Assembly (NCBI GenBank): GCA_905234695.1 | Contig: CAJOHZ010000015.1 | Location: forward strand, 1-41,766 | DNA from: an uncultured Bacteroidales bacterium | GTDB lineage: Bacteria > Bacteroidota > Bacteroidia > Bacteroidales > P3 | Length of the DNA: 41,766 bases | Direction of reading: 5' to 3' | Part shown: piece by piece, positions 4,030-41,766 of the stretch | Numbering within the stretch: the first letter of the stretch is position 1 | How the letters are laid out: each line of letters starts with the position of its first letter | Made by a program: the position numbers and the translations under genes | The notes under the pieces: model-generated | Seen by the model: the letters and a program-made list of their open reading frames with translations, nothing else | Told to the model about the DNA's origin: nothing | Database searches by the model: none

Positions 4030-4782
4030 TCAACTTTCATTAATCAATTCGTTTGGGTATTCCACTTTGGTGAGGAAAAGCCCTTGGGGAGGCATGGATA
4101 CTCCCGCGGCACAGCGGTCTTTTCGTTCAATAATCTCACGGAGTCCGTCGAGGGTGAGTTTGCCGCGCCCAACATCGAGGAGTGTCCCTGTGACGGAACG
4201 TACCATGTTGCGCAGGAATCTATTGCTGCGGATGGTGAAGACCCACTCGTCGTTCAGCCACTCCCAACGGGCGTGGCTGAGATGACAGATATTGGTCTTG
4301 ACCTGCGTGTGAAGTTTTGCAAAGCTGGTGAAGTCATCGTACTCCATGAGGATTTCCGCTCCACGGTTCATCAAATCCATATCGGGTTCGAAGTATATGC
4401 GGCTGTAGAGTCCTTGCCGGAAGGGAAGTCGGCGGTTACTGGCATGGTACTGGTAGGTGCGCGCCGTGGCATCGAAGCGGGCGTGGGCGTTGTCCGCCAC
4501 GGGGAAGATATTGAAGATGGCAATATCGTCAGGCAGGAAACTGTTCAGTTTAAAGATAAGAGTGGATAGCGGAGAGATGGGAGAGAGGGCGTCAAAGTGG
4601 GCGTAGAAATCCGAGGCGTGGACACCGGTGTCGGTGCGGCCACATCCCACCACTGCGATGGGTTGCCGAAGCAAGGTCGAGAGCGCCTGCTCGAGGGTCT
4701 GCTGCACGGTGGGCAGGTCAGGTTGGGTCTGCCAGCCGCAGTAGTTCGTGCCGTTGTATGCCAGATGGATGAAGTAGCGCAT
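4030..4782 (-). CDS. truA: tRNA pseudouridine(38-40) synthase TruA
   Basis: TruA converts U38-U40 of the tRNA anticodon arm to pseudouridine. With the ATG at 4782 the protein starts MRYFIHLAYNGTNYCGWQ and is 250 aa, the normal size. A longer reading from 4857 would overlap topB by over 60 bp and add residues unlike the family, so it is rejected. The catalytic aspartate is D51 in GCGRTDTGVHA. Further family motifs are FDATARTYQYH, then the second-domain TIRSNRFLRNMVRS stretch. The gene starts 11 nt after the topB stop and is followed by prmA, consistent with an sppA-topB-truA-prmA unit. Confidence 0.94.
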   Translation of the reverse strand: MRYFIHLAYNGTNYCGWQTQPDLPTVQQTLEQALSTLLRQPIAVVGCGRTDTGVHASDFYAHFDALSPISPLSTLIFKLNSFLPDDIAIFNIFPVADNAHARFDATARTYQYHASNRRLPFRQGLYSRIYFEPDMDLMNRGAEILMEYDDFTSFAKLHTQVKTNICHLSHARWEWLNDEWVFTIRSNRFLRNMVRSVTGTLLDVGRGKLTLDGLREIIERKDRCAAGVSMPPQGLFLTKVEYPNELINES

Positions 4783-4793
4783 GGTTCTCTCGT

Positions 4794-6956: not shown

Positions 6957-6969
6957 TGGAGTGTAGGGG

Positions 6970-8769: not shown

Positions 8770-8828
8770 AATTGTATCTGTATAATTTTTAATATTTAAT
8801 TGTTTCGTGTGCGCGAAAACGCATCTTG

Positions 8829-8836
8829 CAAAGATA
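8829..8836 (-). promoter_or_regulatory. Bacteroidota -7 box for sppA operon
   Basis: On the minus strand the sequence reads TATCTTTG, a match to the TAnnTTTG consensus, about 60 nt upstream of the sppA ATG. No convincing -33 TTTG element is present at the expected distance. Confidence 0.6.
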
Positions 8837-8896
8837 CGATTTTTTTTTGATTTTTCGGTTGTGGGATTTTTTTCTCTTTTATTGCCAAAAAAGTTG

Positions 8897-8904
8897 TACC
8901 TTTG
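8897..8904 (+). promoter_or_regulatory. Bacteroidota -7 box for the S41 protease
   Basis: TACCTTTG matches the TAnnTTTG consensus and lies 23 nt upstream of the chosen ATG at 8928. The -33 region is T-rich without a clear TTTG. It supports the downstream start rather than the longer reading from 8826, which would begin upstream of this promoter. Confidence 0.65.
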
Positions 8905-8927
8905 CATCTCTTTTCATACCCCCATTC

Positions 8928-10547
8928 ATGAAACGGATATTTTTGCTTACCCTTCTGTTGACGGTCGCTATTGCACCCTCCAATGCTCAGTTATTTAAGA
9001 AGATATTTCATCGAAACCAAACTGAAGACACCATCCCGGGCTTGGTACGCCTGCAAGAGGTGATGGGGTTGGTTCACAACAATTATGTTGAAACACCCAA
9101 CACCGACCGCATCAGTGAGGCTGCCGTGCGCCAGATGTTGCGCACCCTCGACCCCCACAGCATATATATTGCCGCCAAGGATGTGGAGCGTACCAACGAG
9201 AGCCTGCAGGGCAATTTCGAAGGGGTCGGCATCTCCTTTGGCATCTACAACGACACCATTGTGGTGGCCGAGGTGGTGCCTGGCGGAGCCTCTGAGAAGG
9301 TGGGGGTGTTGCGGGGCGACAAGATACTTCGTATCGATGGCGGTCCGGCAACGGGCGACAGCATCAACAATGCATTTGTGTTCAAGCATCTTCGGGGGAA
9401 GAAAGGCACCCTTGTGGTGGTGGACGTCCTGCGCGGCCGCAACACAATATCTTTCCATATCATCCGCGACAAGGTGCCCATCAATTCTGTCGACACCTAT
9501 TTCATGGCCGACGACACCATTGGCTATATCCGTCTGCTTCGTTTTGCCCGCACCTCTGTCGATGAGTTCCGCCGTGCGGTGAACGATTTACAGAAGCAAG
9601 GAATGAAGGCTTTGGTGCTTGATTTAAGGGGAAATACGGGCGGTTACCTCGACATCGCCTGCGGGTTGGCTAACGAATTTCTTCCCACGGGAAGCCTGAT
9701 TGTCTATACTGAGGGGCGTACCCAGAAACGGCAAGACTTCCGCGCCAACCGTTACGGCAGGTTCCGTAAGGGCAGTCTCGTGGTGCTGATTGACGAGAAC
9801 AGCGCTTCGGCCTCCGAGATTGTCAGCGGCGCCGTCCAGGATTGGGACCGTGGTGTGGTGGTAGGCCGTCGCAGTTTCGGCAAAGGACTGGTGCAGCGGA
9901 TGTACACGCTTTCTGACGGTGCGCAAGTGCGCATCACCACAGCGCGCTACTATACCCCTTCGGGGCGGTGCATACAGAAGCCCTATGAGAGCGGCACCGA
10001 CGACTACAATGCCGATTTGGCCCGTCGTTACAACCATGGAGAGATGGTGAGTTCCGACTCCATCCATTTTGCAGACTCGCTGAAGTATAAAACGGTCGGT
10101 GGCCGCACTGTTTACGGAGGGGGCGGTATCATGCCCGATATCTTTGTGCCGATGGACACCATGCGGCTCAGCGACTATTTCATTGCCTGCCGCAGCAAAG
10201 GTCTCCAGCGTCAGTTTGCGCATCAGTGGGCGGACGGACATAAGACACAGTCCATGGTGAAGGATTTCGACACCTATCTGCTCCACTACGACAGTCTGGG
10301 CATCGACTCACTTTTCGAGGCCTATGCCGCCGAGCATGCGGTGGTACGCGACACCGCCAAGGAGCAGGCCGAGCCCATACGGGTGAAGCACAGCGATGAC
10401 TACCAGCATGTCCTGCTCAAAGGGCTGGTGGCCGAACAGCTGTTCGGCATGAAATACTACTATCTTGTGATGAAAGAGGTGGACAACGGCTATCAGTCCG
10501 CAATCACTACCCTGCGGGTTTCGCCGTTGTCGATGCGCACCAAGTAA
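8928..10547 (+). CDS. S41 carboxy-terminal processing protease (CtpA-like)
   Basis: This 539-aa exported protease is of the tail-specific/C-terminal processing type and would act in the periplasm. The start at 8928 gives a signal peptide (MKRIFLLTLLLTVAIAPSNAQ). The longer reading from 8826 begins upstream of the promoter. A PDZ domain covers about residues 95-165 (GVGISFGI, VPGGASEKVGVLRGDKILRIDG). The S41 domain follows with ALVLDLRGNTGG. The catalytic residues line up as S294 (NSASASEIV), D305 and K319 (RRSFGKGLVQ), with the same 25-residue Ser-Lys spacing as in E. coli Prc. About 10 residues beyond the usual end (DNGYQSAITTL) read into the convergent BspA-like gene, giving a 55-bp tail overlap. 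Confidence 0.93.
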   Translation: MKRIFLLTLLLTVAIAPSNAQLFKKIFHRNQTEDTIPGLVRLQEVMGLVHNNYVETPNTDRISEAAVRQMLRTLDPHSIYIAAKDVERTNESLQGNFEGVGISFGIYNDTIVVAEVVPGGASEKVGVLRGDKILRIDGGPATGDSINNAFVFKHLRGKKGTLVVVDVLRGRNTISFHIIRDKVPINSVDTYFMADDTIGYIRLLRFARTSVDEFRRAVNDLQKQGMKALVLDLRGNTGGYLDIACGLANEFLPTGSLIVYTEGRTQKRQDFRANRYGRFRKGSLVVLIDENSASASEIVSGAVQDWDRGVVVGRRSFGKGLVQRMYTLSDGAQVRITTARYYTPSGRCIQKPYESGTDDYNADLARRYNHGEMVSSDSIHFADSLKYKTVGGRTVYGGGGIMPDIFVPMDTMRLSDYFIACRSKGLQRQFAHQWADGHKTQSMVKDFDTYLLHYDSLGIDSLFEAYAAEHAVVRDTAKEQAEPIRVKHSDDYQHVLLKGLVAEQLFGMKYYYLVMKEVDNGYQSAITTLRVSPLSMRTK

Positions 10548-12916
10548 TTACCCGGAGTCTTCGTGCGGTAGCGGAAGGTGGCGGGGCAGTCGTCTCGGTG
10601 CTCCACCTGACGGCCATAGTCGTCATAGACGGTGACGCTGTGTCCCTTGGTATGTTCGATGGTGATGGTGTTGCCTTCCACCTTCATGGGAAATGTCTGA
10701 TCGAGCGTTTCCGCGCTGGTTTCGGTCTGCTGCCCGTCAGTCTGCGGATTGACAAACAGGGCGGTGTAGCGTACATTGTTGTTCACCGTCACCTCGCGGG
10801 GGTTCTCCTTGTTGCCGTCGCTCCAGCCCAGGAAGGTGGCACCCGCCTGAGGCGCCGCCACGATGGTGGCCTTGTCGCCCGGCTCGAACTCACTGCCGCC
10901 CAGCACCAGCGCGGTGCCCAAAGTTCCGTTGCTGCTGGTCACGGAAATCGTCACCAGATAACTTGTGTCGAAACGGGCGATGAGGGTGGTGTCATGGTCC
11001 ACCACTAGGGTGCGGGGGTTGTCGCGTGAGCCATCGTTCCAGCCAACAAACATATATCCCGCTGCGGGGATGGCCTGCACGATGGCTTGGGCGAAACTGC
11101 AGGTATTGTTCTGGATAATGCGTACCGTCCCCAGGGTGTCGTTGCTGCTGCGCACCTGCAGGCGGTTCTCGCTACTATTGCCCTCGATACGGGTGAAGTA
11201 ACGCCAGTTCTCGTTGTTCTGGTAGGCGTTGAGCGACTTGCAGGGCACATACACGGGTAGGATATTGCTGATGCCTTGGAACGTGTTGTTTCCGATATGC
11301 GGGGGGAATCCCTCCAGTTGCAGAGAGGCAATACTGATGCAGTTCTCGAAGGCGTTGTTGCCGATGGTGCTGACGCTACCGGGAATCACCAATTGCCCGT
11401 CGAGGCGGGTGCAACCGCGGAAGGCGCCGCTTCCGATGGTGGTGATGTCGTCAGGCAGTTCGATGGCAGTGATTTGGGTGCATCCGCTGAAAGCGTTGCT
11501 TCCGATAACCGCCACTCCTGCGGGGATTTTCAAAGTGCCGGAGAGGTTGGTGCAATTGCTGAACGCATTGGCGGGAATCTGCTTGACGCCGTTGAAGATG
11601 GTCACGCTGCGAATACCGGAGCAACCGTGGAAAGCGGCATGTCCTACCGCTCCCATCGACTTGCAGTCTTCGGCGCCATACTCGATGGAAGAGATACGTC
11701 TGCAATCGGCAAAGGCGCTGTTGCCGATGCTGGTCATGCCGATAGGAATGGTCAGCGTGCCGGTAAGGCGGTCGCAGCCCATAAAGGCTTCGTTGCCGAT
11801 ATAGGTCATGCCGGCCGGCAGGTCGAGGGCGCCGGTGAGGCTGCTGCACCCCTTGAAGGCGGAATTGCCTATCGAGGTGATGCTTTCGGGCAGTACCAGC
11901 TTGCCTTCCATACCGCTGCATTGATAAAAGGCGAAATTGGACACCGAGGTCATTTGGCTGCTGAGCCGCAGGGACGACAGCGAGCTGCATCCGTAGAACG
12001 CCGAGCCTCCGATGGTGGTGACGGTGTTGGGTATCACCAAATCACCCTCCAAGTTGGAACACTGGTAGAATGCCGAATGACCGATGGCGGTGAGCCGTTG
12101 GGGCAGGGACATCTCACGTAGGCTGGAGCAGCCCTTGAAAGCATTGTCGGGAATGACCCGCACATTGTCTCCGATGGTGACGGATGTGATGCCGATGCAG
12201 CCGGCAAACACGGGGGCCGAGCTGCTGCCCATGGTCAGGTTGTCGCTGCCATAGAAGATGACGGACGCCAGTCGTGTGCATTCGGCGAAGGCGCTGTTGC
12301 CTATGGCGGTGACGGAAGGGGTAATGGTGATGCTGCCACGGATGCCGTTGCAGCCCTTGAATGCCGAACTTCCAATCTCGGTAATCTGGTCCGGGAGTTG
12401 CAGCGAAGTGAGCGACTGGCAACCTGAGAAGGCGAAACTGCCGATGCGGGTGACCTTGGAAGGTATCGTCAGCGGGCCGGCCAGCTCCTGGCAGTTGGAA
12501 AACGCCGAACTGCCAATCTCCTCGAGGTTTTGCGGGAGGGTTGCCGACACGAGTCGTTGGCAGCCCGAGAAGGCGTATGCACCGATAAATCTCAGATTGG
12601 AAGGCAACTTCACCACCGACAGCTCTTTGCAGCCCATGAACGCCTTTTCGCCGATTTCGGTCACCACATAGCGATGACCCTCAAATTCAGCGGTGGCAGG
12701 AATATCAATCATCCCTTTGGGGACTTGGTCGTAGCGTGGGGTGCGGTTGTATTGCGACACCACAGCCACGTGGGCCGAGTTCTCGTCGGTAATCTTGAAG
12801 AAGAGCACCTGCCCGTCTGGCAGGGTTTGCATGAAATCGTATGTCGGCTTCTGCGCACACAGGGGTGCGTGTAAGTATAAAATCAAAGTGATAATCAGTG
12901 CTATGGATTTTCTCAT
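10493..12916 (-). CDS. BspA-like leucine-rich-repeat surface protein
   Basis: This is an 807-aa secreted protein. A signal peptide (residues 1 to about 22, ending LHAPLCAQ) is followed by many LRR_5/BspA repeats at about 65-560, with the unit pattern IGxxAFxxCxxLxxxLxLP. Two Listeria-Bacteroides/InlB-type repeats follow (ending YMFVGWNDGSRDNPRTL and ATFLGWSDGNKENPREV). The tail, at about 750-807, has the pattern VYDDYGRQV...PGNYLVRIDNGETRRVVI and resembles a type IX secretion sorting domain. Such proteins are exported to the cell surface and often bind host or bacterial ligands; the ligand here is unknown. The 3' end overlaps the S41 protease gene by 55 bp, and both tails look genuine. Transcription starts from its own promoter at 12947-12976. 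Confidence 0.92.
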   Translation of the reverse strand: MRKSIALIITLILYLHAPLCAQKPTYDFMQTLPDGQVLFFKITDENSAHVAVVSQYNRTPRYDQVPKGMIDIPATAEFEGHRYVVTEIGEKAFMGCKELSVVKLPSNLRFIGAYAFSGCQRLVSATLPQNLEEIGSSAFSNCQELAGPLTIPSKVTRIGSFAFSGCQSLTSLQLPDQITEIGSSAFKGCNGIRGSITITPSVTAIGNSAFAECTRLASVIFYGSDNLTMGSSSAPVFAGCIGITSVTIGDNVRVIPDNAFKGCSSLREMSLPQRLTAIGHSAFYQCSNLEGDLVIPNTVTTIGGSAFYGCSSLSSLRLSSQMTSVSNFAFYQCSGMEGKLVLPESITSIGNSAFKGCSSLTGALDLPAGMTYIGNEAFMGCDRLTGTLTIPIGMTSIGNSAFADCRRISSIEYGAEDCKSMGAVGHAAFHGCSGIRSVTIFNGVKQIPANAFSNCTNLSGTLKIPAGVAVIGSNAFSGCTQITAIELPDDITTIGSGAFRGCTRLDGQLVIPGSVSTIGNNAFENCISIASLQLEGFPPHIGNNTFQGISNILPVYVPCKSLNAYQNNENWRYFTRIEGNSSENRLQVRSSNDTLGTVRIIQNNTCSFAQAIVQAIPAAGYMFVGWNDGSRDNPRTLVVDHDTTLIARFDTSYLVTISVTSSNGTLGTALVLGGSEFEPGDKATIVAAPQAGATFLGWSDGNKENPREVTVNNNVRYTALFVNPQTDGQQTETSAETLDQTFPMKVEGNTITIEHTKGHSVTVYDDYGRQVEHRDDCPATFRYRTKTPGNYLVRIDNGETRRVVIAD

Positions 12917-29836: not shown

Positions 29837-30263
29837 ACAACTGGCGGTATATTTCGGCATCGGAAAATATGTGTCGCAACACTCACGCAAAGGCACATGG
29901 GGTACAGGAGCATTGGAGACCATCAGCAGCCAGCTGCGCAGGGAACTGCCGGGATTGAGAGGTTATTCGGCCTCGGCCTTAAAGAATATGCGTAAGTTCT
30001 ATGAGGCATGGATGTTATTGGATGCCAATTCGTCGGTTGCAACTGACGAATTCACAACTACACAGACACTTTTTGAAGAAGCAGATAAATCGACAATTGC
30101 AAATGTCGAAATTGGAAAAAACAAATCGACAATTGCAAATGTCGAATTCCCCTATCTCTCCACAATCGATATCTACGACCCAGCTCAGGTTATCTTCACC
30201 GAAGCATCGCCGAAGCTACAGTCTTCAATATTTGAGCCATCTGTATGTCAAAAAGTAAGATGA
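29817..30263 (+). pseudogene. YhcG/DUF1016-type nuclease remnant (N-terminal part)
   Basis: The frame reads DNLHDSIQLAVYFGIGKYVS, then QHSRKGTWGTGALETISSQL, RRELPGLRGYSASALKNMRKFYEAW. This matches the N-terminal DUF1016 domain of YhcG-like proteins, which are PD-(D/E)XK nuclease-family proteins often found in defence and mobile regions. There is no start codon at the expected place: a TGA precedes the D. The C-terminal nuclease domain is missing, because after about residue 75 the frame enters repeats (two copies of KSTIANVE) and stops at 30263. It is therefore a dead fragment. It lies between the two 89-bp repeats at the edge of the AT-rich island. Confidence 0.65.
30087..30146 (+). repeat. 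Two 24-bp direct repeats inside the YhcG remnant
   Basis: AAATCGACAATTGCAAATGT plus CGAA occurs at 30087-30110 and again, identically, at 30123-30146, a 36-bp period. The repeat contains ACAATTGCAAATGTCGA with TCGACAATTG/CAAATGTCGA inverted symmetry. It encodes KSTIANVE twice. Confidence 0.8.
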
Positions 30264-30467: not shown

Positions 30468-30602
30468 ATGATTACCGCATGTGTGCAATACAGCCTCCAT
30501 GCTCCGGAGTTCTGCCAAGCGGAAGACTACCGTACTATAATTTATCGCAAAGAAAAAGTGTTAGACCTTGACGAAAAATGTCAGATTTTGGTGAAAAAGT
30601 AA
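30468..30602 (+). CDS. Small ORF, 44 aa, unknown
   Basis: The frame runs from ATG at 30468 to TAA at 30602 and starts MITACVQYSLHAPEFCQAED. It is Cys-containing (three cysteines) and charged toward the C terminus. I do not recognise it. It follows the promoter box and overlaps the next small ORF by 25 bp, which suggests translation in series, but chance openness in AT-rich DNA cannot be excluded. Confidence 0.35.
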   Translation: MITACVQYSLHAPEFCQAEDYRTIIYRKEKVLDLDEKCQILVKK

Positions 30603-30730
30603 CCATTCTGGACGAAAAAGAACAAAAATCGATGAAAATAGTAATAAAACAGAGCAGAAAAGTTATAGAGTACGTGACGGCTAACCCCAACGACCCCAAT
30701 CGCAGATACATCACAGCACACGGGGAATAA
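30578..30730 (+). CDS. Small ORF, 50 aa, upstream of radical SAM gene
   Basis: The frame runs from ATG at 30578 to TAA at 30730, 14 nt before the radical SAM gene. It reads MSDFGEKVTILDEKEQKS, then MKIVIKQSRKVIEYV and TANPNDPNRRYITAHGE. An internal ATG at 30632 would give 32 aa. The C-terminal part is Asn/Pro/Arg/Tyr-rich and looks non-random. No family is recognised. Because small genes beside radical SAM enzymes can encode peptide substrates, this is a possible substrate or accessory peptide. It could also be the tail of a decayed gene. Confidence 0.45.
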   Translation: MSDFGEKVTILDEKEQKSMKIVIKQSRKVIEYVTANPNDPNRRYITAHGE

Positions 30731-30744
30731 CAAATGAAGAAACT

Positions 30745-32157
30745 ATGGCGAAACGGAAAATCAAAATTGGACTTGTGGATGCCGACCTGCTATGTAACGG
30801 GACTCGGCACCCAAACCTTGTTTTGATGAAGCTCGCTGGATTTCTCAACGACAATGGCATTAATTTTAAACTAATTATCGACCAAGACGAAGATGTCACA
30901 CCCTATAAGCTCATCTACATCTCTCGTGTTTTTACCTTTACACAGATGCCCGCGTTCTACGAGAATGCAACTGCTGCTCAAAAAAGAAAGTTTCGGGAAG
31001 GCGGCACTGGGTTTTACGCCAACGAATTGAATGTAAACAAATATCGGTACGAGCGTGAGAAGGATATGAATCAGTTGGAAAACGATAAGTTCCTTAATCA
31101 ATATCCAAATTATCGTGGAGGTCCTCGCACTCATGGCATTGACTTGGCTCGCCAGATGCCGTATTATCACTTATATGACGAGTTCGTAGACCGAAAAGTA
31201 GCTGAGGGTTTCAAACGCGAGAAATATAAAGACTATCAGAAATACAGCATTGGCTTTCTTACCCGTGGATGTATTCGCCATTGCCCATTCTGCATCAACA
31301 AATTGGAGGATAAGATCTTCCCTTATTCCGACCTTGAATGGTTCCTTGACGAAGAACGTGATAAACATGGTCGTTTAGTGCGTCCTTTTATCTATCTGTG
31401 GGACGATAACTTCCTTGCCGCAGACCCTATTGTCTGGCGAGCAAGGCTTCAGCAACTAATAGATTCTGGCCGCCCATTCCAATTCCGTCAGGGCCTAGAC
31501 GAACGTATGTTGGCAGAAAGCCCTTATGGAGATGAAATGGCCAAAATGCTCTCCCAAACCAAATACCATGGAGACTTTATCTTTGCGTTTGACAATTGGA
31601 AAGACCGTCTATTGATAGAACGAGCTCTAAAGATTTGGAAGCACTATAATCCCGATAAGGGCACAAAATTTTACCTTTTCTGTGGATTTAAGCAAAGTGA
31701 GAAAAATCATGACAAGTTCTATAAAGACATTTGGGAAATATTCCAACGTATAAAGGTGTTGATGTCTTATGGATGCGTGGGATATCTTATGCGTCATGAA
31801 GATTATAAAAAAGCGCCTGTCGCAAATCTGTATATTCAAATAGCGCGTTGGTGCAACCAGCAAGCTTTCTATAAAAAAATGTCGTTTTGGGAATACACTT
31901 ATCGTAACCAAACCTACTGGGAGCAGAAGTCCGGGTTTGAAGTGTTGAAAGAAATCAAGTCCTTCGATGAATTTCAGAGGGATTTTGAGACTGGTTATTA
32001 CGAAAGAGAGGACTCTCGTGGGAAAGTGCGTAAGATATGCAAAACTTTACAGACCTTGCTAGATATGCTGGAAATGTTCCCCGAGCATCAATACGAATTA
32101 TTAGAAATGTTTGACTATAAAATGTCTGACCTTAAAAACCCCACACTCTGGGAATAA
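30745..32157 (+). CDS. Radical SAM enzyme, substrate unknown
   Basis: This 470-aa protein carries the radical SAM iron-sulfur motif CX3CX2C at C176, C180 and C183 in FLTRGCIRHCPFCINK. The preceding 170 residues begin KRKIKIGLVDADLL, then KLIYISRVFTFT. They resemble a Rossmann-like, B12-binding-type N-terminal domain, but I see no cobalamin-binding DxHxxG motif. After the cluster come PFIYLWDDNFLAADPIVW and FQFRQGLDERML, beta-strand segments typical of the TIM barrel. The C-terminal part, with QQAFYKKMSFWEYTY, is of unknown role. It heads the AT-rich island, 12 nt before the NERD helicase gene, in the same direction as DrmA/DrmB. Similar proteins occur on phages and mobile elements. A role in nucleic-acid or peptide modification is speculation. 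Confidence 0.85.
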   Translation: MAKRKIKIGLVDADLLCNGTRHPNLVLMKLAGFLNDNGINFKLIIDQDEDVTPYKLIYISRVFTFTQMPAFYENATAAQKRKFREGGTGFYANELNVNKYRYEREKDMNQLENDKFLNQYPNYRGGPRTHGIDLARQMPYYHLYDEFVDRKVAEGFKREKYKDYQKYSIGFLTRGCIRHCPFCINKLEDKIFPYSDLEWFLDEERDKHGRLVRPFIYLWDDNFLAADPIVWRARLQQLIDSGRPFQFRQGLDERMLAESPYGDEMAKMLSQTKYHGDFIFAFDNWKDRLLIERALKIWKHYNPDKGTKFYLFCGFKQSEKNHDKFYKDIWEIFQRIKVLMSYGCVGYLMRHEDYKKAPVANLYIQIARWCNQQAFYKKMSFWEYTYRNQTYWEQKSGFEVLKEIKSFDEFQRDFETGYYEREDSRGKVRKICKTLQTLLDMLEMFPEHQYELLEMFDYKMSDLKNPTLWE

Positions 32158-32168
32158 AAACAAAGATA

Positions 32169-33923
32169 ATGCCAATTATTAGCCATGACTATAAGGACCT
32201 GAACAGTTTAGAAACCATCATAAAACACAATGATGGCACACCACTGTATGGTGAAATAGACATGTATCGAAGAATCTGGATGGATTGTGAAAAGAGCAAT
32301 CTAACATGGCATTTTTGGCATGATTTGCGGTTGCCGATTGGTAATAATAAGCAATCAGAAATCCAGATTGATTTCTTTTTAGTTTGTAAAAAGGGTGCGC
32401 TTGTTGTTGAGGTAAAAGGCGGGAATGTGGGGATTCAAAATGGCCAATTTTTCTTTACCAAAGGTGACGGGATAGTTATGGACAGGTCTCCTTTCCAACA
32501 AGCAGACGACTATAAATATGCTTTGATGAATAATAAAATCATCAATAGCAATCAGATTTTCATCGATACCGTGTGCGCATTTCCCCATACAAAGATGGCA
32601 CATACACATTACCTGTCCAATTTGGATATGGGCTATAAACTATGGTCTGCTCTCCAACAAGAAAACCAAGAACATTCTTTTGCGGACTTTTGTCTTTCTG
32701 TACTTAGCAAGGATAAAGATAAAAAACACTGGGTTGGTGAAGATTTAAAAGTTGGTGAGGTAGAAATTGCGATTCATCATTTAGTCGCAAACATACAACC
32801 AGATTTTAATTATTCGGAAACGAGTTACCAAAGTATCGTTGAGTGGCTAAATATTCAGAACCTAGACACATTCCGAAGCTTGGAGAAAAACAACAGAATT
32901 ATCATAGAGGGAGGGCCAGGTACTGGAAAAACCACAATAGCAAAAGCATTCATACGTAGATACAAAACATTAAGAGGGGTTTATCTTTGTTGGAACAATT
33001 TACTGGCGGCCACAATACGCAACCAACTTCTAAAAGTTGGCTTGGTGAATTGTGAAGTGTACCAATTCATCTCTTTTGCCTTAAAACTTGATCCGAATCA
33101 TAAGTTCGTCTCATACGATGATTTTCAGCAGGAGTCGTCATTGGTTGTTGAAAAATTGACGAAGTTATTTACCAAGCTTCGAGAATCGGATGATTTCATA
33201 CCCTACGATTATATTGTGATAGATGAAGCCCAAGATATTTTTGACAAAGGTGCTGCTGAAGTTCTCAATTTACTAACATCAATAAACGGGAACGGATTGG
33301 GAACAGGAAGATACCTTGTGTTTTTCGACACCGAGCAAGGATACCGAAAGGACATTAGGGAACTAGATGGCTATGCTGAAGATATTTCCCGTTTTGGAAC
33401 TCATTTTGTTTTGAATGAGAATAAACGAGTGCCAAACAACAAACAGATAGTCGATGAAGCAAATAAATTATTGCAAAGCGATAATGAAGTTCAGGCTTCT
33501 GAAATAATTAAGAGTATCGAAGGAAGGAACGACCCAGCAATTAAAGTGTTTCGCTTTCAGGGTTCAAATGAGTTAGTCAAACACATCAAGCCACTTCTGT
33601 CTGACTTAAAAGACGGAAAAAAGAAGTGGACGGATTATGTGGTTTTGACCGACTCACATAACAAGCAACTATATGAACGGCTATCAGATATTGAACTAAT
33701 AAAGGAGCTTAAGCTTGAGAATGTCAAATACGAAGAGAACAGGCTTGGGCTTACGACTATTTTGTCTTATAAAGGATTAGAAACGAAACACGTTATCTTG
33801 ATCTTAAATAACAGAGAAACAATAGACAAGTTTGAACTCTATGTAGGAATGACTCGTGCAATGTATGACCTTGAAATACTACTCCTCGATAACCCCAACA
33901 TCTCCAATTGTTATGACTACTGA
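32169..33923 (+). CDS. NERD nuclease domain - SF1 helicase fusion
   Basis: This 584-aa protein has two parts. Residues about 25-140 form a nuclease-related domain (NERD), with E29 in YGEIDMYRR, D68 in EIQIDFFLV and the E81-x-K83 pair in LVVEVKGG. From about 215 onward is a UvrD/Pif1-like superfamily I helicase. It has Walker A at 248-255 (GGPGTGKT), Walker B D352/E353 in YIVIDEAQD, and late motifs TILSYKGLETKHVIL and LYVGMTRAMYDLEIL. It is compact and lacks large insertions. It should unwind and perhaps cut DNA in an ATP-dependent way. Its stop overlaps the next gene by 11 bp. In the context of DrmA/DrmB it may be the second helicase of a DISARM-like system, in place of DrmD; this is inference. 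Confidence 0.88.
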   Translation: MPIISHDYKDLNSLETIIKHNDGTPLYGEIDMYRRIWMDCEKSNLTWHFWHDLRLPIGNNKQSEIQIDFFLVCKKGALVVEVKGGNVGIQNGQFFFTKGDGIVMDRSPFQQADDYKYALMNNKIINSNQIFIDTVCAFPHTKMAHTHYLSNLDMGYKLWSALQQENQEHSFADFCLSVLSKDKDKKHWVGEDLKVGEVEIAIHHLVANIQPDFNYSETSYQSIVEWLNIQNLDTFRSLEKNNRIIIEGGPGTGKTTIAKAFIRRYKTLRGVYLCWNNLLAATIRNQLLKVGLVNCEVYQFISFALKLDPNHKFVSYDDFQQESSLVVEKLTKLFTKLRESDDFIPYDYIVIDEAQDIFDKGAAEVLNLLTSINGNGLGTGRYLVFFDTEQGYRKDIRELDGYAEDISRFGTHFVLNENKRVPNNKQIVDEANKLLQSDNEVQASEIIKSIEGRNDPAIKVFRFQGSNELVKHIKPLLSDLKDGKKKWTDYVVLTDSHNKQLYERLSDIELIKELKLENVKYEENRLGLTTILSYKGLETKHVILILNNRETIDKFELYVGMTRAMYDLEILLLDNPNISNCYDY

Positions 33924-36294
33924 ATTTGAAAATATTGCAAACCAATCATCAGCAGAGGTTAACTCAATCATCAATGCTATGATTCATTCAAAAAAAGAAC
34001 AAGCTCGACGTTTCCTTAATGTGATGAACAGCATTGTGGATTACTATCTAAACCGTAAGGCAAAAGATGATGAGATATGTTTCCCCATAATATATATTCC
34101 CCATGCTCCAGAATGGGCTCGTGAGGTCTGGCTTAAGTATCTAATACTAAAACTGTCTTTGTATTATAACGAGGACAGTCGTTTTTCGCTAAAAGGTTTT
34201 GTCGAAAAGAATAAGAGCATTGTTCTAAGCACACCCGAAGACGAGAAGGTTTATAAAAAATACACTTATCCTTGCAGGCAATACATGATAAAAATATTAC
34301 GTGAGGCTACCGATAATTATATCGGTAACAATGGTCACAAGAACATGATTTTCTGCACGGAGAATGACATTCGGGTTCCGCGAGAAGACAAGAATAAGTT
34401 CATTACAGAGTTTTACGGCGATGTGGACGATGTGTTTACTGAGAAAAACCTGATAATGGCTCACAATCTTGATGCTGATGACGTTCGTTCGCAATTGAGG
34501 GAGCATCGGAATGAAGAGAGTGTTTGCATCGATAATCTATTTGTTTTTTATACTAACAATGACAAGGTTAATTCATTAGAGACCTCTGCATTGGAGCGAT
34601 GGAATAGTGCTTATCATGTTGGCATGAGAAATTGTTTCGTGTTTTATTTTTCAGAACGACCATTTAGACTAAATCATATCTGGCGTAAAGGGGTGTCATT
34701 GTCTAAGAGGTTTCCCATGATATCTGAGAAAGAGTTCTCAAACTACGAGCATTTTATCACTTTTGATGAATCAGAAACAAATTATTTGTTTGATTTGAAG
34801 AACTCGTATGAGCACATGTTTTTTCCAGATGAAGATGATCAGTTGATGTTCACGGATGTGCTGGGGAGTTTGTTGGACGAATCTGAATACAAAATACAAG
34901 AGCGCAACCGCTTTGCATTATGTCTAAGTCCTGAGATTGAGACCATATTCAAGAAGTATTTGAAAGAATCGTATAGCGATTTTGATGTAGAAAAATACCA
35001 ACTATCATTTGATTGGCAGTTAGGCACAAAGGCTGCTGAAGTAAACACTGTTCTTTGTAAAAGCATATCATCAATCAATGACTATAAGAAAGAAATTGCC
35101 GTTGTCGTTGATAAAAACACAGGCAAAGAAACGAAGCGAGCCCTGTCCATTCTGTTTCAATCGTTTAATCCAGATATTCGGGTCAAGTATTATGATTATT
35201 CAGCATTAAAACCAACCAAAGGAGCATGTAATGGTATAAAGGAGAACATGGTTGTCGTTTTGCAATACAGACCACATTATCTACGACAGATATTTGCCAA
35301 ATACCCTAATTCATTCGACCCCTTACCTGTTCGACAAGGTCAGTACATTTACGATTTTATTCAAGGTTTTGTTTTCAACGATATGTATATGTGGGATAAG
35401 TATGATTATGATAAAATCATGTATGAATTACTGGATGGGGAAGTTCGGAAAAAATTATTTGGAAACATAAAACAACCTGTGAAACCAAATGTAAGAAGAG
35501 TAAATGGCGAAACAGAGTTTTCTGATGAACGGGGTGCTTCCAGGGGTATTGTTTATGTTCGTGGCCTATACGAAAATGGACAAACATTTAGCATACCAGA
35601 ATCAAACTATGTAATTTGCGAGATTGAAGGAGAAACCTTGATATCTCGCCTGAGTGATTTGAAGCGACAAGGTATATTGAATTCAGTCGTCAAAATGCAA
35701 GAACTTGATGAGATTGCAGATGCACTTAAGACAATTATTGAGAAAAAGAATCTGGATGAAGATGACAGAGAAAAATTTGTTAGGCAGACTCAGTTTAATT
35801 TGGGGAAAATAACAGAGCAAGAACGTGATTCAGATACGGCATTATGGAAGATTTTGTTGGCAAAAAAAATAGAAGCCGAAGGGTTTGAGCAGACATACAA
35901 TGCCGTGATGGAGGGATTGCAGGATAATATGCGTATTCAGATTTATCAGTTTAAGAGATGGGCTGATTATGGAAACAATATGATATTACCACTTTCAAAA
36001 GTATGTCAAAGGAAACTATTTGAGTATCTTGGATTTGGCGTGACATCCCCGTATCTATCCATTATGAGAAGAAAGAAATTGGCTGCTACGAATGGCACGA
36101 GGCAATACAATAGCATGACCACCTATTTCTTACTACAAACTCTTTTGACAGAAATAGACGATGATGTTTATGATTCATTCAAAGGCAGTGAAATTAAAGA
36201 ACTGTTGATGCTTCAGAAAAAAGGAGATTTAATCGCACTGGTTTCACTGCTTAGAGAAAAAATCAAATTGCAAACTATCAAAACCATTGAATGA
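33913..36294 (+). CDS. Island protein of unknown function, 793 aa
   Basis: I set the start at ATG 33913 (MTTEFENIANQSS), which overlaps the NERD helicase stop by 11 bp. A longer reading from 33856 would run 68 bp into that gene. No Walker motif, metal site or membrane segment is evident. The N-terminal third has FPIIYIPHAPEWAREVWLKY, and the middle has IAVVVDKNTGKETKRALSIL and MVVVLQYRPHYLRQIFAKYP. Later come RGIVYVRGLYENGQTFSIPE and YVICEIEGETLISRLSDL. The last 150 residues are helical and basic (RWADYGNNMILPLSKVCQ, SIMRRKKLAA). Its size and place beside drmA make it a positional counterpart of DrmE, the unknown component of class 2 DISARM, but I cannot show homology. The next gene starts 1 nt after its stop. 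Confidence 0.8.
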   Translation: MTTEFENIANQSSAEVNSIINAMIHSKKEQARRFLNVMNSIVDYYLNRKAKDDEICFPIIYIPHAPEWAREVWLKYLILKLSLYYNEDSRFSLKGFVEKNKSIVLSTPEDEKVYKKYTYPCRQYMIKILREATDNYIGNNGHKNMIFCTENDIRVPREDKNKFITEFYGDVDDVFTEKNLIMAHNLDADDVRSQLREHRNEESVCIDNLFVFYTNNDKVNSLETSALERWNSAYHVGMRNCFVFYFSERPFRLNHIWRKGVSLSKRFPMISEKEFSNYEHFITFDESETNYLFDLKNSYEHMFFPDEDDQLMFTDVLGSLLDESEYKIQERNRFALCLSPEIETIFKKYLKESYSDFDVEKYQLSFDWQLGTKAAEVNTVLCKSISSINDYKKEIAVVVDKNTGKETKRALSILFQSFNPDIRVKYYDYSALKPTKGACNGIKENMVVVLQYRPHYLRQIFAKYPNSFDPLPVRQGQYIYDFIQGFVFNDMYMWDKYDYDKIMYELLDGEVRKKLFGNIKQPVKPNVRRVNGETEFSDERGASRGIVYVRGLYENGQTFSIPESNYVICEIEGETLISRLSDLKRQGILNSVVKMQELDEIADALKTIIEKKNLDEDDREKFVRQTQFNLGKITEQERDSDTALWKILLAKKIEAEGFEQTYNAVMEGLQDNMRIQIYQFKRWADYGNNMILPLSKVCQRKLFEYLGFGVTSPYLSIMRRKKLAATNGTRQYNSMTTYFLLQTLLTEIDDDVYDSFKGSEIKELLMLQKKGDLIALVSLLREKIKLQTIKTIE

Positions 36295-36295
36295 T

Positions 36296-39200
36296 ATGAA
36301 AAACTTAATACAAGAAAAAAGGGATTCTTTGGAGTTGTTCATTCGTGAACAGATGGTTGGCCCCAATGGGTGCAGGGGACGGTTCTCTCTTGAAATGGAA
36401 GAAGGCAATCTCTTTGATGGCGAAATAATAAACACCACGCCTGGTTCGATTTATAGTACAGCAGTATTGTTTCCTCGCAAAGCGATAGGATTGTTTGATG
36501 ATAGAGAAGCAACTGACAACCCTGATTCCGAAGAAAGTGAAAACATTTCAACAAATGGCGAGATTGAAGACGAACAGTTGAGGTCAGATAGCAATGAGCA
36601 AAATGGAGCACTCGGGAATGATGTTGATGACGAGGACGTTTATTCATTGAGCCGTAGATTTCCAAATACTGTTGGCATATCTTGTTGTCTCATACCTGAA
36701 GCAGATATTTCCAAGGATGTAAAAATAACGGTTTCTGGGAGATATTATACGAAGATTGTTCACGGTGACAAGCAAAGAGTACAGGTAATAATAAAAGAGA
36801 ATTTGCAAGAGTTTGAACAATTCTTTTCAGAGCATCCTGTATTGCATCAATACTTTTTCTATGATTCTGGCGTGCTTAAAATCAAGGCAATACCTGTCAA
36901 AGAGGTTACGAAAATAAGAGAAATGCTCCGCACAATCAATATGGATTGTGCATCTCAGGTTGCAATGATTGATGGAAACGCCGACCCTATATTCCTCAAA
37001 ATACAAGAAGGCTATAGGTTTTTGCTTTCATATCGCGAAGTATTATTTAATAAATGGCTCAATCGCATTCATTTTGAAGAGGATGGCCAAGGCAATGAAA
37101 CAGCATCGTATCTTGATGAAGAAGAGAAAAAACAGATAGAGAACCAACTTAAGAAAGTTGAGGTTTATGAGACTATTATGTCATATTTTGACAGCCTTAC
37201 TGAGCTCTATGACTATAAAGGATTCGGTTTTTGGCAGTCTCATGATTTTAATACAACGATTGATTTGGCTGGACTCAAGAAGGATAGCGGCTTTTCAGCC
37301 AAAAAGATATATAAGCCTTCAGACCATGATTGCTTAAATCATTTCTTTTCTGTACAGGTGGCAGACAAAGTTAATTTGGCACTATCTGCCTGGCTTCAGA
37401 TTACAAGAAACAGTAAAGACAAGACCGACAAAAACCTTTACTTAAAGGTTCTTATTGTTAACGACTCTACTCCTTTCCGAGAGTCCAATAAAAACTATTT
37501 TTCTATTGTTAATGAGGAAGTAAACAAACTTTGCTTTTTTGGAATAAGAATTGACTTGGAAAGCGACGCATTGAACTCATACCATGCAGAAAACACATAC
37601 AATGATGTCAATAAAGACGAGGATAAACTAAACTTTCTATATCGCAGCATTCATGATTACGGCGTGGGGCATCTTTGCTCTGTCGACTGGAAAAAAAATT
37701 CAGATGACAAAGTTAATCACATTTGGTCAGAGTTTCTTCCTTCATTTGAGACACCAGACATCGAGCCGGTACCAAGGAAGAAATATGCAGATTATATAGG
37801 AGAAGGCGATAAATGTGTACCCCAACCCTATTTAACCGACGACAAGTGTCTTCAATTTAAGTATCTGTCAACTTTTTCAGATGCTTCAGATGCAGATATT
37901 ATTTCCGGACTCAATGAATTTATCGATTTATATGAAGAGTGGATATCAGAAAACAAGTCGCGGATAACAGAAGCGAGGGACAAGGAATTTGCTTCGGAAA
38001 ATCTTTCCAAATGCGAAAACGACATGCAGCGCATGAGAGCGAATGTCGAGAGTATTCTGATGGGCAATAAAGAGAACATGCATTGTTTCCGCTTGATGAA
38101 TTCCGCCATGTTTATGCAACTTTGGCACAACAAGAAGGATAATCAGAGAATTGTAGTTACAGAAGACCCTGATTTGGACGAGGTTTTTTATAAAGATGCA
38201 AAAGACGATATATTCCCTTCCGCTCCACATGCGGCCTGGCGTCCATTCCAATTGGCATTTATTTTACTTAACTTGGATGGTATCATACAACATCCTGAAG
38301 ATACTGGGTGGACAAAACGCAATGATTTGGTTGATTTAGTCTGGTTTCCCACTGGTGGCGGGAAGACGGAAGCTTATCTCGGAATTATTGCACTTTGTAT
38401 TATCTATCGCAGAAGGAAGTTTAAAGATCAAGGCTCGGGTGTGGCTGCTATTATGAGGTATACGCTTCGCTTATTGACAACACAGCAATTCCAAAGGGCT
38501 TTGCGTTTGATTTTGGCATTGGAGCAGATTCGAAGATGGGGAAAACAACAGCAAGAATTCAATCTCGGCAAAGAAGCAATTTCAATTGGTTTGTATGTTG
38601 GTGCTAATTCTTTACCCAACAATGAAAAAGACTTGGATGAGGAGTCTATCAAGTGGAATAATAGAGAAGATGGGGAGAACAAGACCAAGATTCCGTTGGA
38701 CAGATGTCCATGGTGCGGTTCAAAGTTGAAGTATTCATCTAGTAAGAAAAAATACTTTTGTTCGAATGAAAACGATTCTTGCACTTTTTCCGATGAATTA
38801 CCAGTTCGCTTATGTGATGAGCACATTTACAAAAACCCGCCAACTTTGTTGTTTGGCACAGTTGATAAATTTGCGTCGATAGCTCATCGAGTTTCTACCA
38901 AATCTGCTGAAGAAAACAAAGATTCGCGCCGTATTTTTGGACAAGGCATCAATTGTCTTCCTCCAGATCTCATTATTCAAGACGAATTGCATCTGCTTCT
39001 AGGACCGTTAGGCTCAGCTGTTAGCTTATTTGAATGTGCTATCGACCAGTTATGTTCGCGGGACGATGGTACAAGACCAAAGATTATTTCTTCTACAGCA
39101 ACTACACGTAATACCGAATTGCAGATTCGGGCATTATATGATAGAGGTCTTAACATATTCCCGCACAATTGCCTTCTATAAACGAGAAATGTTAGACGGA

Positions 39201-40370
39201 CATGAGGAATATGTGTCAAAACGTAAGTATATTGGCATCATGCCTACTGGAAGAACACAGATGACCACACAAATGCGTTTGGCAGCGATTCTGTTGGTTC
39301 ACAGGGCTATCTTTGAGGCTGAGCATTCAAAGGATTCGGGGTTTGAGTTTGTGGCAAACAACTATTACTCAATCATTTCATATTTTAATAGCCTAAAAGA
39401 AGTTGGCAAGACGGATGCCATGTTCTATACAGAATATTCGAAGTATGTGCGCAGATTGTTCAAACGAGTTATGCACTATGGAAATCTTTTGGAGTGTTTC
39501 TATTCCATGAACGAGTTGAAGGAGGCCGAACTATCTGGACGATTGACAGGCGCTGAAGTAAACGAAAAGTTTGCAGAGGTCGGACAAGATTGGAGCATAG
39601 AGAAACGTCTGCCGCATAAAGAGAAAGGATTATGGGTAAAGGGAACCACTCCTCCAGATTATATCTTGGCAACCAATATGATTTCTGTAGGCTTGGATGT
39701 GGGGCGTTTCAACACTATCATAATGAATTCTATGCCAAGAAATATTGCCGAGTACATTCAGGCAAGTTCTCGAGTAGCAAGAGAACAGAAAGGTTTAGTG
39801 TTAACTTTGCATAATCCATATCGTTCAAGGGACGTGTCGCATTATGAGAAATACAGGGAGTTTCACGAGAAGCTATATTATTATGTGGAACCTATTTCCA
39901 TAACGCCATTTTCGATGAAATCTATCGAGAAATACCTTGCCTTGTATCTTGCCGCCATTGTTCGCCACTCTTTCAACAAACTTGCTGACCGAAAAAGTGC
40001 AAGCCGAATCAATGAAGGTGATTTGAGTAGACAGATAAAAGAAATGGTTGTTGAGTACTTCGACAAGAGGTATGAGAGGATGCAAAGACCAGATATTAGC
40101 CTATTGGAGAAAGGGCTACTCACGTCGGAATTAAAGGATAACATTATTGAGTTTGTTGATAAGGCTTTGAAGCAGTGGGAAGAAAAGGCGAATGAAACGG
40201 AAGGATTGGTGTATTATAACACACAGCATCAAAACACATTGGCATTGTTTAGTGTTCCGGCAGACTATGATGATTCAAAAGGAGAAAACCTGTGGACAGT
40301 TCCACAGTCCCTCCGTATTGTTGAACCAGAAGCAGTGCTTCATGTAAAAGTAGGAAACGATGGAGATTAA
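36296..40370 (+). pseudogene. drmA: DrmA-type DISARM helicase, frameshifted
   Basis: Two frames make up one DrmA-like helicase of about 1,350 aa. The first runs from ATG 36296 to TAA 39181; the second is open from about 39160 to 40370. The first half has an acidic stretch, then Walker A at 685-691 (PTGGGKT), MRYTLRLLTTQQFQRA, a zinc site starting CPWC (C804, C807), GTVDKFASIAH, the DELH box at 896-899 and SSTAT. The second half has RKYIGIMPTGRTQMTTQMRL, MISVGLDVGRF and AEYIQASSRVAREQ. The break falls just after LNIFP: a +1 shift near 39165 is needed, and a few residues seem missing. It could be a true mutation, an assembly error or, less likely, programmed frameshifting. The end overlaps drmB by 11 bp. 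Confidence 0.88.
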
Positions 40371-41766
40371 GACAGCAAAACAATTCAATCAAGGCATCGG
40401 GAAATACAAGGTGCTTTCATCAAATGCAGGTGTAGGTTCCATAGTGGCAACAAAATGGGGCGGGTTTGTGATGCCTCTAACGTCTTCAAAATGGGGCAGT
40501 GTGTTTGCTGTCAATGATTATCTGAGAAGAAATAACACCGAATTGCTTAATGCAGCAAAAATAATGGAAGAAACTGGGGTTGAGATTGTTGACGACAACA
40601 GGTTCGTGAGCTTTCTTAAAACAACCGAAGGGATGACTTCTCTTCGTTGTCTGGTAGCCATTCCGCACATAACTCTTAATGCCTATAACGAATGTAATGT
40701 GGAAGAGCATCCTGTTAATAAAAGGTATAGGGAATTGCATCCCAATAGTAGAGGGTGGGAAGAAAGTACATTTACCATTCCTGCGATTGTATTTCCACGT
40801 TGGTTCTTTTCTCGTTCATCGAACAGATTTCTTAAACCTTTAGAAGAATGGATTAAAATATGGAAAGGAAAGGATTGTAATAGAGGAGACCTTAAATATT
40901 TCGCTCCACCACGTGATCCATATCTTAAGACGGGTCGTAAACAGTTTGGTCATCTTCCCGAAGGAAAAGATAGAGTCCATGAATTACTGGAACAGGTGTC
41001 GATGGTGCTAATATGCCCTAATGGCCACATCTCCGATATTCCATGGCAACAATATTTCTCGGCAAAGCTTGATATGCGTAATAATGGTAATAAGGTGACG
41101 GAAAAAGGCTTCGACCTTTTTCATTATGAAGGTCAGCCTTGCCCAAACAGCAAAACGGGTGAACATGAGTTGCAATGGCTTGAAAACCGTAGTCACGCAG
41201 AAAGCTTTGGTACTCTTAAATGCAAGCACTGTGGCCAATCTGTTAGTTTGGAAGGTATTATGAACTTGCAACCACTGTGCCCGGGCGATAAGCCTTGGGA
41301 GGGGGTTGGCAAGCAAGACCATGCTGCTTGTATGCAAAAGACTGAGCATACAACAATGAAGTGGACTCTGGTGACGAGTAATAGCGTTTATTATGCCGAG
41401 AGTTTCAGTAGTCTTTATATCCCAGATGATTATAGAAAAGGAGTAAACTTCTTGGATGAAAAGCAGCAAAGGGTGCTATCACTAATGATTGAGAAGTGGT
41501 TTGATAAGTATGCCAAGAAACATCCAGGAGCAACACGCAGGGAGTATTCTGAACAATGCTTTGTTGAGGATGCCAATAGTTTTGTCGAATACGTCATTTC
41601 AAAAGCTGATGATAGCGCATACGAGCTAACATCTGAAGAAGCACAGAATGTAATATGCGCTTTTCTTGCAGAAGGGTTAGAGGAGATAGACGGTGATGTG
41701 CGAGAACAGTACAGGTATGAAGAATTTGAAGTGTTTCAAAAAAACAGCAAATCTTTAGGAACGAAC
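40360..41766 (+). CDS. drmB: DrmB-type DISARM protein (partial, runs off window)
   Basis: The frame is open from ATG 40360 to the last base (469 codons) with no stop, so the gene is cut by the window. The start overlaps the drmA end by 11 bp. The N-terminal segment KYKVLSSNAGVGSIVATKWG is the usual DrmB opening. FTIPAIVFPRWFF, then HELLEQVSMVLICPNGHISD and the zinc-like CKHCGQ (C288, C291) follow in the expected order. The DUF1998 domain, which defines the family, would lie beyond the window. DrmB acts with DrmA as a DNA-binding complex in DISARM phage defence. DNA is AT-rich like the rest of the island. Confidence 0.88.
   Translation, partial: MEIKTAKQFNQGIGKYKVLSSNAGVGSIVATKWGGFVMPLTSSKWGSVFAVNDYLRRNNTELLNAAKIMEETGVEIVDDNRFVSFLKTTEGMTSLRCLVAIPHITLNAYNECNVEEHPVNKRYRELHPNSRGWEESTFTIPAIVFPRWFFSRSSNRFLKPLEEWIKIWKGKDCNRGDLKYFAPPRDPYLKTGRKQFGHLPEGKDRVHELLEQVSMVLICPNGHISDIPWQQYFSAKLDMRNNGNKVTEKGFDLFHYEGQPCPNSKTGEHELQWLENRSHAESFGTLKCKHCGQSVSLEGIMNLQPLCPGDKPWEGVGKQDHAACMQKTEHTTMKWTLVTSNSVYYAESFSSLYIPDDYRKGVNFLDEKQQRVLSLMIEKWFDKYAKKHPGATRREYSEQCFVEDANSFVEYVISKADDSAYELTSEEAQNVICAFLAEGLEEIDGDVREQYRYEEFEVFQKNSKSLGTN

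Follow-up and report, generated by a model that had tools for sequence, protein, structure and literature searches.

How would an operon built around DrmA and DrmB, the conserved core of DISARM, tell self from non-self DNA when a radical S-adenosylmethionine (SAM) enzyme stands at its head? The question is raised by five genes at the 3' end of a contig from an uncultured Bacteroidales bacterium (assembly GCA_905234695.1, contig CAJOHZ010000015.1). The window referred to below is this whole contig of 41,766 bases, one of 70 in a genome of 2.47 Mb, and the assembly holds no sequence 3' of drmB. The genes stand head to tail on the + strand, and the gaps between them, with drmA taken as one span, are 11, -11, -8 and -11 bases. 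Their coordinates, with protein lengths in amino acids (aa), are as follows.

30745-32157, + strand: radical SAM enzyme, 470 aa, an N-terminal Rossmann-type domain followed by a radical SAM barrel; proposed DNA self-marking component
32169-33923, + strand: fusion of a NERD nuclease with a superfamily 1 (SF1) helicase, 584 aa (Pfam NERD 1.6e-12; PADLOC C3a187 'NERD+UvrD' 1.7e-13); proposed effector nuclease
33913-36294, + strand: 793-aa protein of an unnamed family, predicted superfamily 2 (SF2)-like pseudo-helicase without a Walker A motif
36287-39181, + strand: drmA, first part, the N-terminal region with Walker A PTGGGKT and DELH (PADLOC DrmA 8.1e-109; NCBIfam DISARM_DrmAS 2.9e-144, under the NCBIfam cut-off)
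39030-40370, + strand: drmA, second part, the C-terminal helicase region in a different frame (PADLOC DrmA 1.6e-61)
40360-41766, + strand: drmB, its first 469 codons up to where the contig stops (PADLOC DrmB 1.5e-07; NCBIfam DrmB_fam 2.7e-15, under the cut-off)

We consider it probable, with moderate confidence, that this operon of a radical SAM enzyme, a NERD helicase-nuclease, a pseudo-helicase, DrmA and DrmB encodes a DISARM-related, restriction-modification-like defence system, which would act against phages. The radical SAM enzyme would install a mark on host DNA, replacing the DISARM methyltransferase; both DNA as the substrate and the kind of mark are presumed. DrmA-DrmB would load on unmarked DNA bearing single-stranded 5' ends; in Serratia DISARM, according to the accessible text of PMC9142583, DrmAB recognises 5' overhangs. 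The fast-evolving pseudo-helicase may serve as adaptor or recognition subunit, and the NERD helicase-nuclease would destroy the DNA, replacing the PLD nuclease DrmC.

The protein families agree with an earlier note made from the letters of this DNA, which named a CX3CX2C radical SAM enzyme, a NERD-SF1 helicase, a 793-aa protein without a known family, DrmA and DrmB, all co-directional and abutting. The CX3CX2C motif reads RGCIRHCPFC, and each of the 46 aligned rows, one of them the window's, keeps all three of its cysteines; lying on a radical SAM barrel, the motif places the protein in the radical SAM superfamily. Family matches are limited to PHROG 9298, plus Pfam Radical_SAM far under its cut-off, and a sequence search of solved structures returned no match. 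The best structural matches of the model in VIA-align are N-Rossmann B12/MiaB-type enzymes, and its predicted fold is of the B12/MiaB type. The family counts 4483 homologs at E <= 0.001 among 7568 candidates; five of the homologs (P0231, P0232, P0235, P0236 and P0239) are 624 aa long, the extra length of P0231 being an N-terminal extension. In the NERD protein the D...EVK motif and DEAQD are kept in all 12 copies compared.

The 793-aa protein, which the note called unknown, is assigned to no family by Pfam, NCBIfam, PADLOC or PHROGs at E <= 0.001. Searched by sequence against solved structures it gave weak unrelated names only; Foldseek gave three matches below 0.001, with TM-scores of 0.09-0.19, and the protein probably folds like a helicase that lacks the Walker A motif. 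A P-loop-like string in the homolog from a related record (L017) lies in another region of the protein and was taken as chance. Set against the corresponding proteins of related Bacteroidota DrmAB loci, here called E-type loci, the 793-aa protein gives a weak collinear profile match (hhalign probability 25%, E 7.6e-4 in a single comparison). For identity with DrmE the signals are mixed: position and size agree with those of the Lactiplantibacillus (L.) plantarum gene, whose protein shows no significant similarity, and the weak E-type match is kept as a lead.

DrmA matches the DISARM DrmA models, and DpdJ and DruE weakly; DrmB is encoded as a separate gene directly after drmA. The window's DrmB fragment is 90% identical to the matching part of the full DrmB of a related locus (L003), whose DrmB and DrmA score 2.6e-55 and 8.5e-178 in PADLOC. 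What the earlier note missed is that the window's drmA is split over two overlapping frames, 36287-40370. The two parts correspond to residues 19-979 and 952-1387 of the L003 DrmA, which is a single frame of 1387 aa, so that the break falls between residues ~952 and 979 in L003 numbering. The feature described in the note began at 30468, where a 44-aa open reading frame starts for which we found no support.

The frame break raises the possibility that the window's copy is a decaying or misassembled operon that does not work, a state compatible with other explanations as well; we regard this as a serious possibility, with a chance somewhat under even. Beside the broken frame itself, a related locus in the one-contig genome G259 speaks for it, being reduced to the radical SAM gene, the NERD gene and a 207-aa piece of the 793-aa gene. 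Against it, the remaining complete genes of the window are open and their motifs intact. The gene drmA is one open frame in all 12 full-length relatives of the DrmA clade described below, and decay or an assembly error in the window would leave the system in those relatives untouched.

Is the five-gene order more than a chance arrangement? Searching 5.8 billion proteins brought up 193 homologs of the 793-aa protein, and a profile of 24 sequences led to 12 loci in a collection of 84,980 genomes. All five genes stand in the same order in 10 of these 12 loci; the other two are cut by contig ends, L006 stopping inside drmA and L007 starting inside the NERD gene. Two loci counted as complete, L013 and L014, carry an extra gene between the radical SAM and NERD genes. 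The distance between neighbouring genes, measured in nine loci with the window among them, spans -62 to 35 bases. A tree of 24 DrmA proteins unites the 12 that come from such loci in one clade (100/100), with a single label change, a value as low as which was seen in 0 of 500 shuffles; its nearest rows are the E-type loci, the exact sister being unsure among several long branches. Given that DrmA forms one fully supported clade, and given the gene order, the operon is supported as a distinct, undescribed DISARM-related subtype, which is what the earlier note had suspected. It had also named recurrence of all five families as support and, as the counter-evidence, a standard class 1 or 2 gene set together with radical SAM and NERD genes that do not stay next to drmAB in relatives; the order recurs, no standard set was seen in the relatives, and both genes are conserved there as companions of drmAB.

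Membership in DISARM is partial: the DrmA and DrmB core is present, and a methyltransferase and DrmC were not recognised. A search of the window and 14 related loci with 21 reference proteins, of which 19 are methyltransferases, one is a PLD protein and one the DrmD of Paracoccus, turned up no relative; divergent methyltransferases could escape this search, and on the window's 3' side it ends with the assembly. No DrmC or PLD gene appeared among those flanking genes that were scanned by Pfam or PADLOC, which were part of the total.

Among 393 genomes of the order, 14 have some radical SAM match, full length in two only, the window's genome and G259, and the 793-aa family is matched in just these two. 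In 190 genomes of the family, searched at 1e-30, the radical SAM protein has five matches: the window's genome, G401, G533, which carries radical SAM - 793-aa - DrmA - DrmB with no NERD gene, G469, which carries a Pbe locus, and G570, with a phage-type copy. The NERD gene may therefore not be strictly obligatory in the operon. With DrmA as anchor, five of the same 190 genomes are found, three being the radical SAM loci and two (G558 and G568) having DrmA and DrmB with no radical SAM gene and no recognised methyltransferase. Among 395 genomes of the phylum the radical SAM protein, searched at 1e-25, matched only the window's genome, so that its family is rare in this sample. No member of the 793-aa family was found in viral contigs or plasmids; one record labelled 'Bacteriophage sp.' (L017, MT837356.1) has radical SAM, NERD and 793-aa genes and is probably a bacterial fragment. 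The L014 record is labelled Firmicutes, its DrmA shares 82% identity with the DrmA of a Prevotella metagenome-assembled genome, and the record may be misbinned; it was not used as a sign of spread across phyla.

Small genes occur upstream of some of these operons. A helix-turn-helix gene lies within 700 bases upstream in 6 of 15 loci; restriction-modification operons have controller proteins, and by analogy such a gene would fit one. A family of 90-116 aa ending in ...WS...LL(V)CL precedes the radical SAM gene in 5 of the 15:

L004, 3092-3442: member of the small upstream family
L005, 6541-6813: member of the small upstream family
L010, 6465-6773: member of the small upstream family
L013, 5738-6073: member of the small upstream family
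L014, 320-640: member of the small upstream family

Further out, the window has a remnant of a putative DUF1016/PDC-S02 defence gene at 29871-30263 on the + strand (Pfam 4.5e-08, PADLOC 3.3e-13), and PDC-S02 genes flank the same operon in two other loci (390 aa, upstream, in L004; 379 aa, downstream, in L011).

What, then, does the radical SAM enzyme do? Its inheritance offers a first indication. Across the ten complete loci the pairwise identities of the NERD, 793-aa, DrmA and DrmB proteins covary tightly (Pearson 0.95-0.99), whereas those of the radical SAM protein follow the other four loosely (Pearson 0.40-0.55, rank correlations 0.66-0.78). Thus L010 and L011 share 94% identity in DrmB and 65% in the radical SAM protein, while L003 and L009 share 51% and 87%, respectively. 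The trees separate in the same manner: L010 groups with L011 in DrmA (99/99) and with L004 in radical SAM (100/99). These comparisons indicate that the radical SAM gene is swapped between operons whose other genes co-evolve. An enzyme acting on DNA, with no protein interface to which it must be fitted, would be free to swap in this way.

A second indication comes from a different restriction module. In two loci, one from a genome of the window's genus (L070, G469) and one from a contig of a viral collection (L041), a radical SAM enzyme of the family stands upstream of PbeABCD-type proteins.

L070, reverse strand, 4680-11507: radical SAM enzyme with a fused additional domain, followed by a Pbe-type system
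L041, 4732-11346: radical SAM enzyme with a fused additional domain, followed by a Pbe-type system
L013, 7530-8246: domain X1 as a separate gene between the radical SAM and NERD genes
L014, 2115-2792: domain X1 as a separate gene between the radical SAM and NERD genes

PADLOC recognises PbeA (4.3e-218), PbeC (1.1e-101) and, weakly, PbeD (0.005) in L041, and the PbeA and PbeC of L070 are 47% and 31% identical to these. Lamassu-like LmuA and LmuB genes lie just upstream of the Pbe-type system in L041. The window's genome has no match to the PbeA of L070 at E 1e-30. The extra C-terminal domain of the radical SAM enzymes of L070 and L041 is homologous to the separate gene of L013 and L014 (BLAST 1e-14); this domain, X1, might be one that reads modified DNA, a candidate being MTaX1, a domain mentioned in the accessible text of PMC10853773. 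Given this homology, and given that the L070 enzyme clusters with those of the DrmAB loci L013 and L014 at 100/100 in the radical SAM tree, one enzyme lineage serves both DrmAB and Pbe modules. The enzyme of L041 lies elsewhere in that tree, so the pairing of radical SAM with Pbe appears in two separate places of it.

Defence by PbeABCD depends on phosphorothioation by DndCDEA, according to the accessible text of PMC6459918 and PMC10853773. The former, in that text, counts 553 PbeAC pairs, 233 with dndCD nearby, 155 with a methyltransferase only and 165 with no known modification gene. In our comparison an SGGKDS (PP-loop, DndC-like) gene lies upstream in 9/9 PbeA-like loci without radical SAM and in 0/2 with it, within the stretch covered. 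The nine are the eight other PbeA-like loci of the family, seven of them from one genus, and a phage-labelled scaffold (L093); their PP-loop gene is next to PbeA or a few genes away.

The third indication is provided by mobile elements. Of 25 phage or viral loci with a relative of the radical SAM gene, the 24 that could be scored fall into 19 non-redundant sets, each represented by its lowest-numbered locus. In 12 of 19 sets the gene has a methyltransferase-like gene as its immediate neighbour, versus 1.37 expected (13/241 control genes; 0/10,000 draws). Some of the references for this count were drawn from the loci being scored and so match themselves; ten references from elsewhere lower it to 11 of 19 versus 1.19 expected (11/244 control genes), L042 dropping out, which left our estimate of the odds as it was. 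Two such neighbours in L015 are confirmed by Pfam (N6_N4_Mtase 1e-25 and C5 DNA_methylase 1.7e-39); those of L042 and L048 are under the Pfam cut-offs. In L016, outside the scored loci, the radical SAM gene adjoins a ParB-like gene. On an archaeal plasmid (L091, LC711081.1, 5995-11568) an intein-bearing radical SAM gene is followed by three annotated DNA methyltransferase genes, with a PAPS-reductase gene nearby. Five other plasmid contexts that we examined have no such neighbour directly beside the gene, or no gene table; one has a cytosine methyltransferase ~3 kb off. A PAPS-reductase-type gene adjoins the radical SAM gene in L054, L055 and L061, that of L054 being SspD-like (1.6e-25). In two of these phage loci it overlaps the radical SAM gene (L054, 7139-8026; L061, 7181-8026).

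Taken together, the exchange between operons, the Pbe loci, the methyltransferase neighbours in mobile elements and the fact that the 21 references revealed nothing else in the operon that could do the marking point to DNA modification. The genomic context thus suggests that the radical SAM enzyme modifies DNA as a self mark, a role the earlier note had proposed as pure inference; it has gained support from context and is still inferred. We further put forward, tentatively and at slightly less than even chance, that the family is a portable DNA-modification module other than a methyltransferase, providing the self mark for DrmAB and PbeABCD, and that its phage and plasmid relatives, sitting among methyltransferases, serve in counter-modification.

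Several observations weigh against this interpretation. All functional links are drawn from gene context. The B12/MiaB-type fold class also includes enzymes that act on RNA, protein and small molecules, and with the radical SAM model Foldseek reached no match below 0.001. In the window itself the drmA frame is broken. One locus (L069) lacks the NERD gene. In both other DrmA loci of the family (L109 and L110) a radical SAM gene is missing and no methyltransferase was recognised, so drmAB does not require a marker gene at its side; likewise, 165 of the 553 published PbeAC pairs have no known modification gene nearby. Among the Pbe-type loci, motif and position served to recognise the PP-loop gene, and five of the eight family loci match PbeA over the helicase part only, at 29-33% identity. 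Finally, 7-8 of the 19 viral sets have no methyltransferase neighbour, and in the set of L048, L049 and L058 one is seen in L048 only.

One alternative has the radical SAM enzyme producing a small antiviral molecule, as viperin does, or maturing a small peptide, like enzymes of ribosomally synthesised and post-translationally modified peptide (RiPP) pathways, with DrmAB and NERD forming a separate restriction branch. Viperins of prokaryotes belong to the radical SAM enzymes and act against viruses through the chain-terminating nucleotides that they produce (accessible text of PMC12926258), and the 90-116-aa family upstream of five loci would offer a peptide. That family was not found in the other 10 of 15 upstream stretches, the window's included, some of the stretches being short; the best structural matches are of the N-Rossmann B12/MiaB type; and neither product would predict the methyltransferase neighbours in viruses or the Pbe loci. 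The radical SAM protein matches no PADLOC family, and viperin is not in the VIA-align list, an absence that excludes nothing, because VIA-align ranks only Foldseek's own candidates. We regard this alternative as unlikely. Its peptide branch, which the earlier note had offered beside DNA marking, has become less likely, as the sole recurrent small family upstream besides the regulator is present in 5 of 15 loci and not in the window.

It is quite unlikely, in our estimate, that the enzyme modifies tRNA, rRNA or protein, as do its structural relatives MiaB, RimO and MgmA, and acts as a growth-arrest effector or regulator: the fold would suit such a role, but the gene is swapped between operons, not co-evolving with the other four, and it recurs beside DNA-modifying genes. 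Very unlikely is an ordinary class II DISARM relative with the radical SAM and NERD genes as passengers of a defence island, for although the 793-aa gene matches the gene before drmA of a class II-type locus in position and size, DrmAB loci without a recognised methyltransferase exist (L109 and L110; L018, with none annotated) and some loci are flanked by further candidate defence genes, PDC-S02 for instance, the five-gene order with its short gaps persists down to ~50% DrmA identity and the 793-aa protein lacks significant similarity to its L. plantarum counterpart.

If a radical SAM self mark is indeed what this operon uses, radical chemistry would put on the host DNA a mark that shields it from a DISARM-type sensor and that methylation surveys would pass over, and the same enzyme would be exchanged between unrelated restriction modules, as methyltransferases are. 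Should the portable module be real, it would bring a new chemistry to restriction-modification together with a new DNA mark. The operon also offers a testable case for an open question, what DrmAB reads to tell self from non-self, and its 4483 radical SAM homologs are a place to seek new DNA modification in Bacteroidales bacteria and in phages. A literature search whose coverage of subscription papers and preprints was thin brought up no title or abstract that joins a radical SAM enzyme to DrmAB or PbeA; PMC10250203, PMC13356809 and PMC12926258 mention radical SAM proteins and, in their accessible text, make no link to DrmAB. In the paper that comes closest, the DISARM-like clade is said to include many uncharacterised classes (accessible text of PMC12458937).

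How does the operon compare with known systems? It shares DrmA and DrmB with class I DISARM (L112, Paracoccus pMARC5: DrmD - DNA methyltransferase - DrmA - DrmB) and differs in that the window and the 14 loci have no relative of DrmD, its methyltransferase or the PLD protein. Class II-type DISARM, for example that of an L. plantarum plasmid (L019, CP096856: methyltransferase - ~800-aa gene - DrmA - DrmB), likewise has DrmA and DrmB adjacent in this order and a gene of similar size directly before drmA; from its position we take that gene to be DrmE, and its protein matched no PADLOC model. Here, in contrast, no methyltransferase or PLD relative was found, a radical SAM enzyme and a NERD helicase lie upstream, DrmA belongs to a separate clade and the 793-aa protein is not significantly similar to that of L. 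plantarum. Other DrmAB loci also have NERD or UvrD-type helicases at their side: on a Rhizobium plasmid drmB is followed by a NERD protein, and on a Photobacterium plasmid by one that is GajB/NERD-helicase-like. The E-type DrmAB loci have a similar-sized gene before drmA in L018, L110 and L115 and two shorter genes there in L109; unlike the operon described here, they have no radical SAM or NERD gene recognised or annotated. Their arrangement (L109, 2248-9211; L110, reverse strand, 4354-12111; L018, 5790-13748) is little described, and no methyltransferase was recognised or annotated beside it. With TALON, ARMADA, BRIGADE and Dpd the operon has a YprA-type helicase in common, and a NERD nuclease is also part of TALON (accessible text of PMC12458937); the partner genes of those systems were not recognised among the five genes, in which a Pfam scan found no TPR, CSD or TBP domain of the sort that TALON has besides NERD. 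PbeABCD, a phosphorothioation-linked system with a CxC ABC-ATPase, has a restriction module unrelated to DrmAB and, in the two loci, a radical SAM enzyme fused to an extra C-terminal domain; yet it is there that the same radical SAM family stands where the comparison loci have their PP-loop genes.

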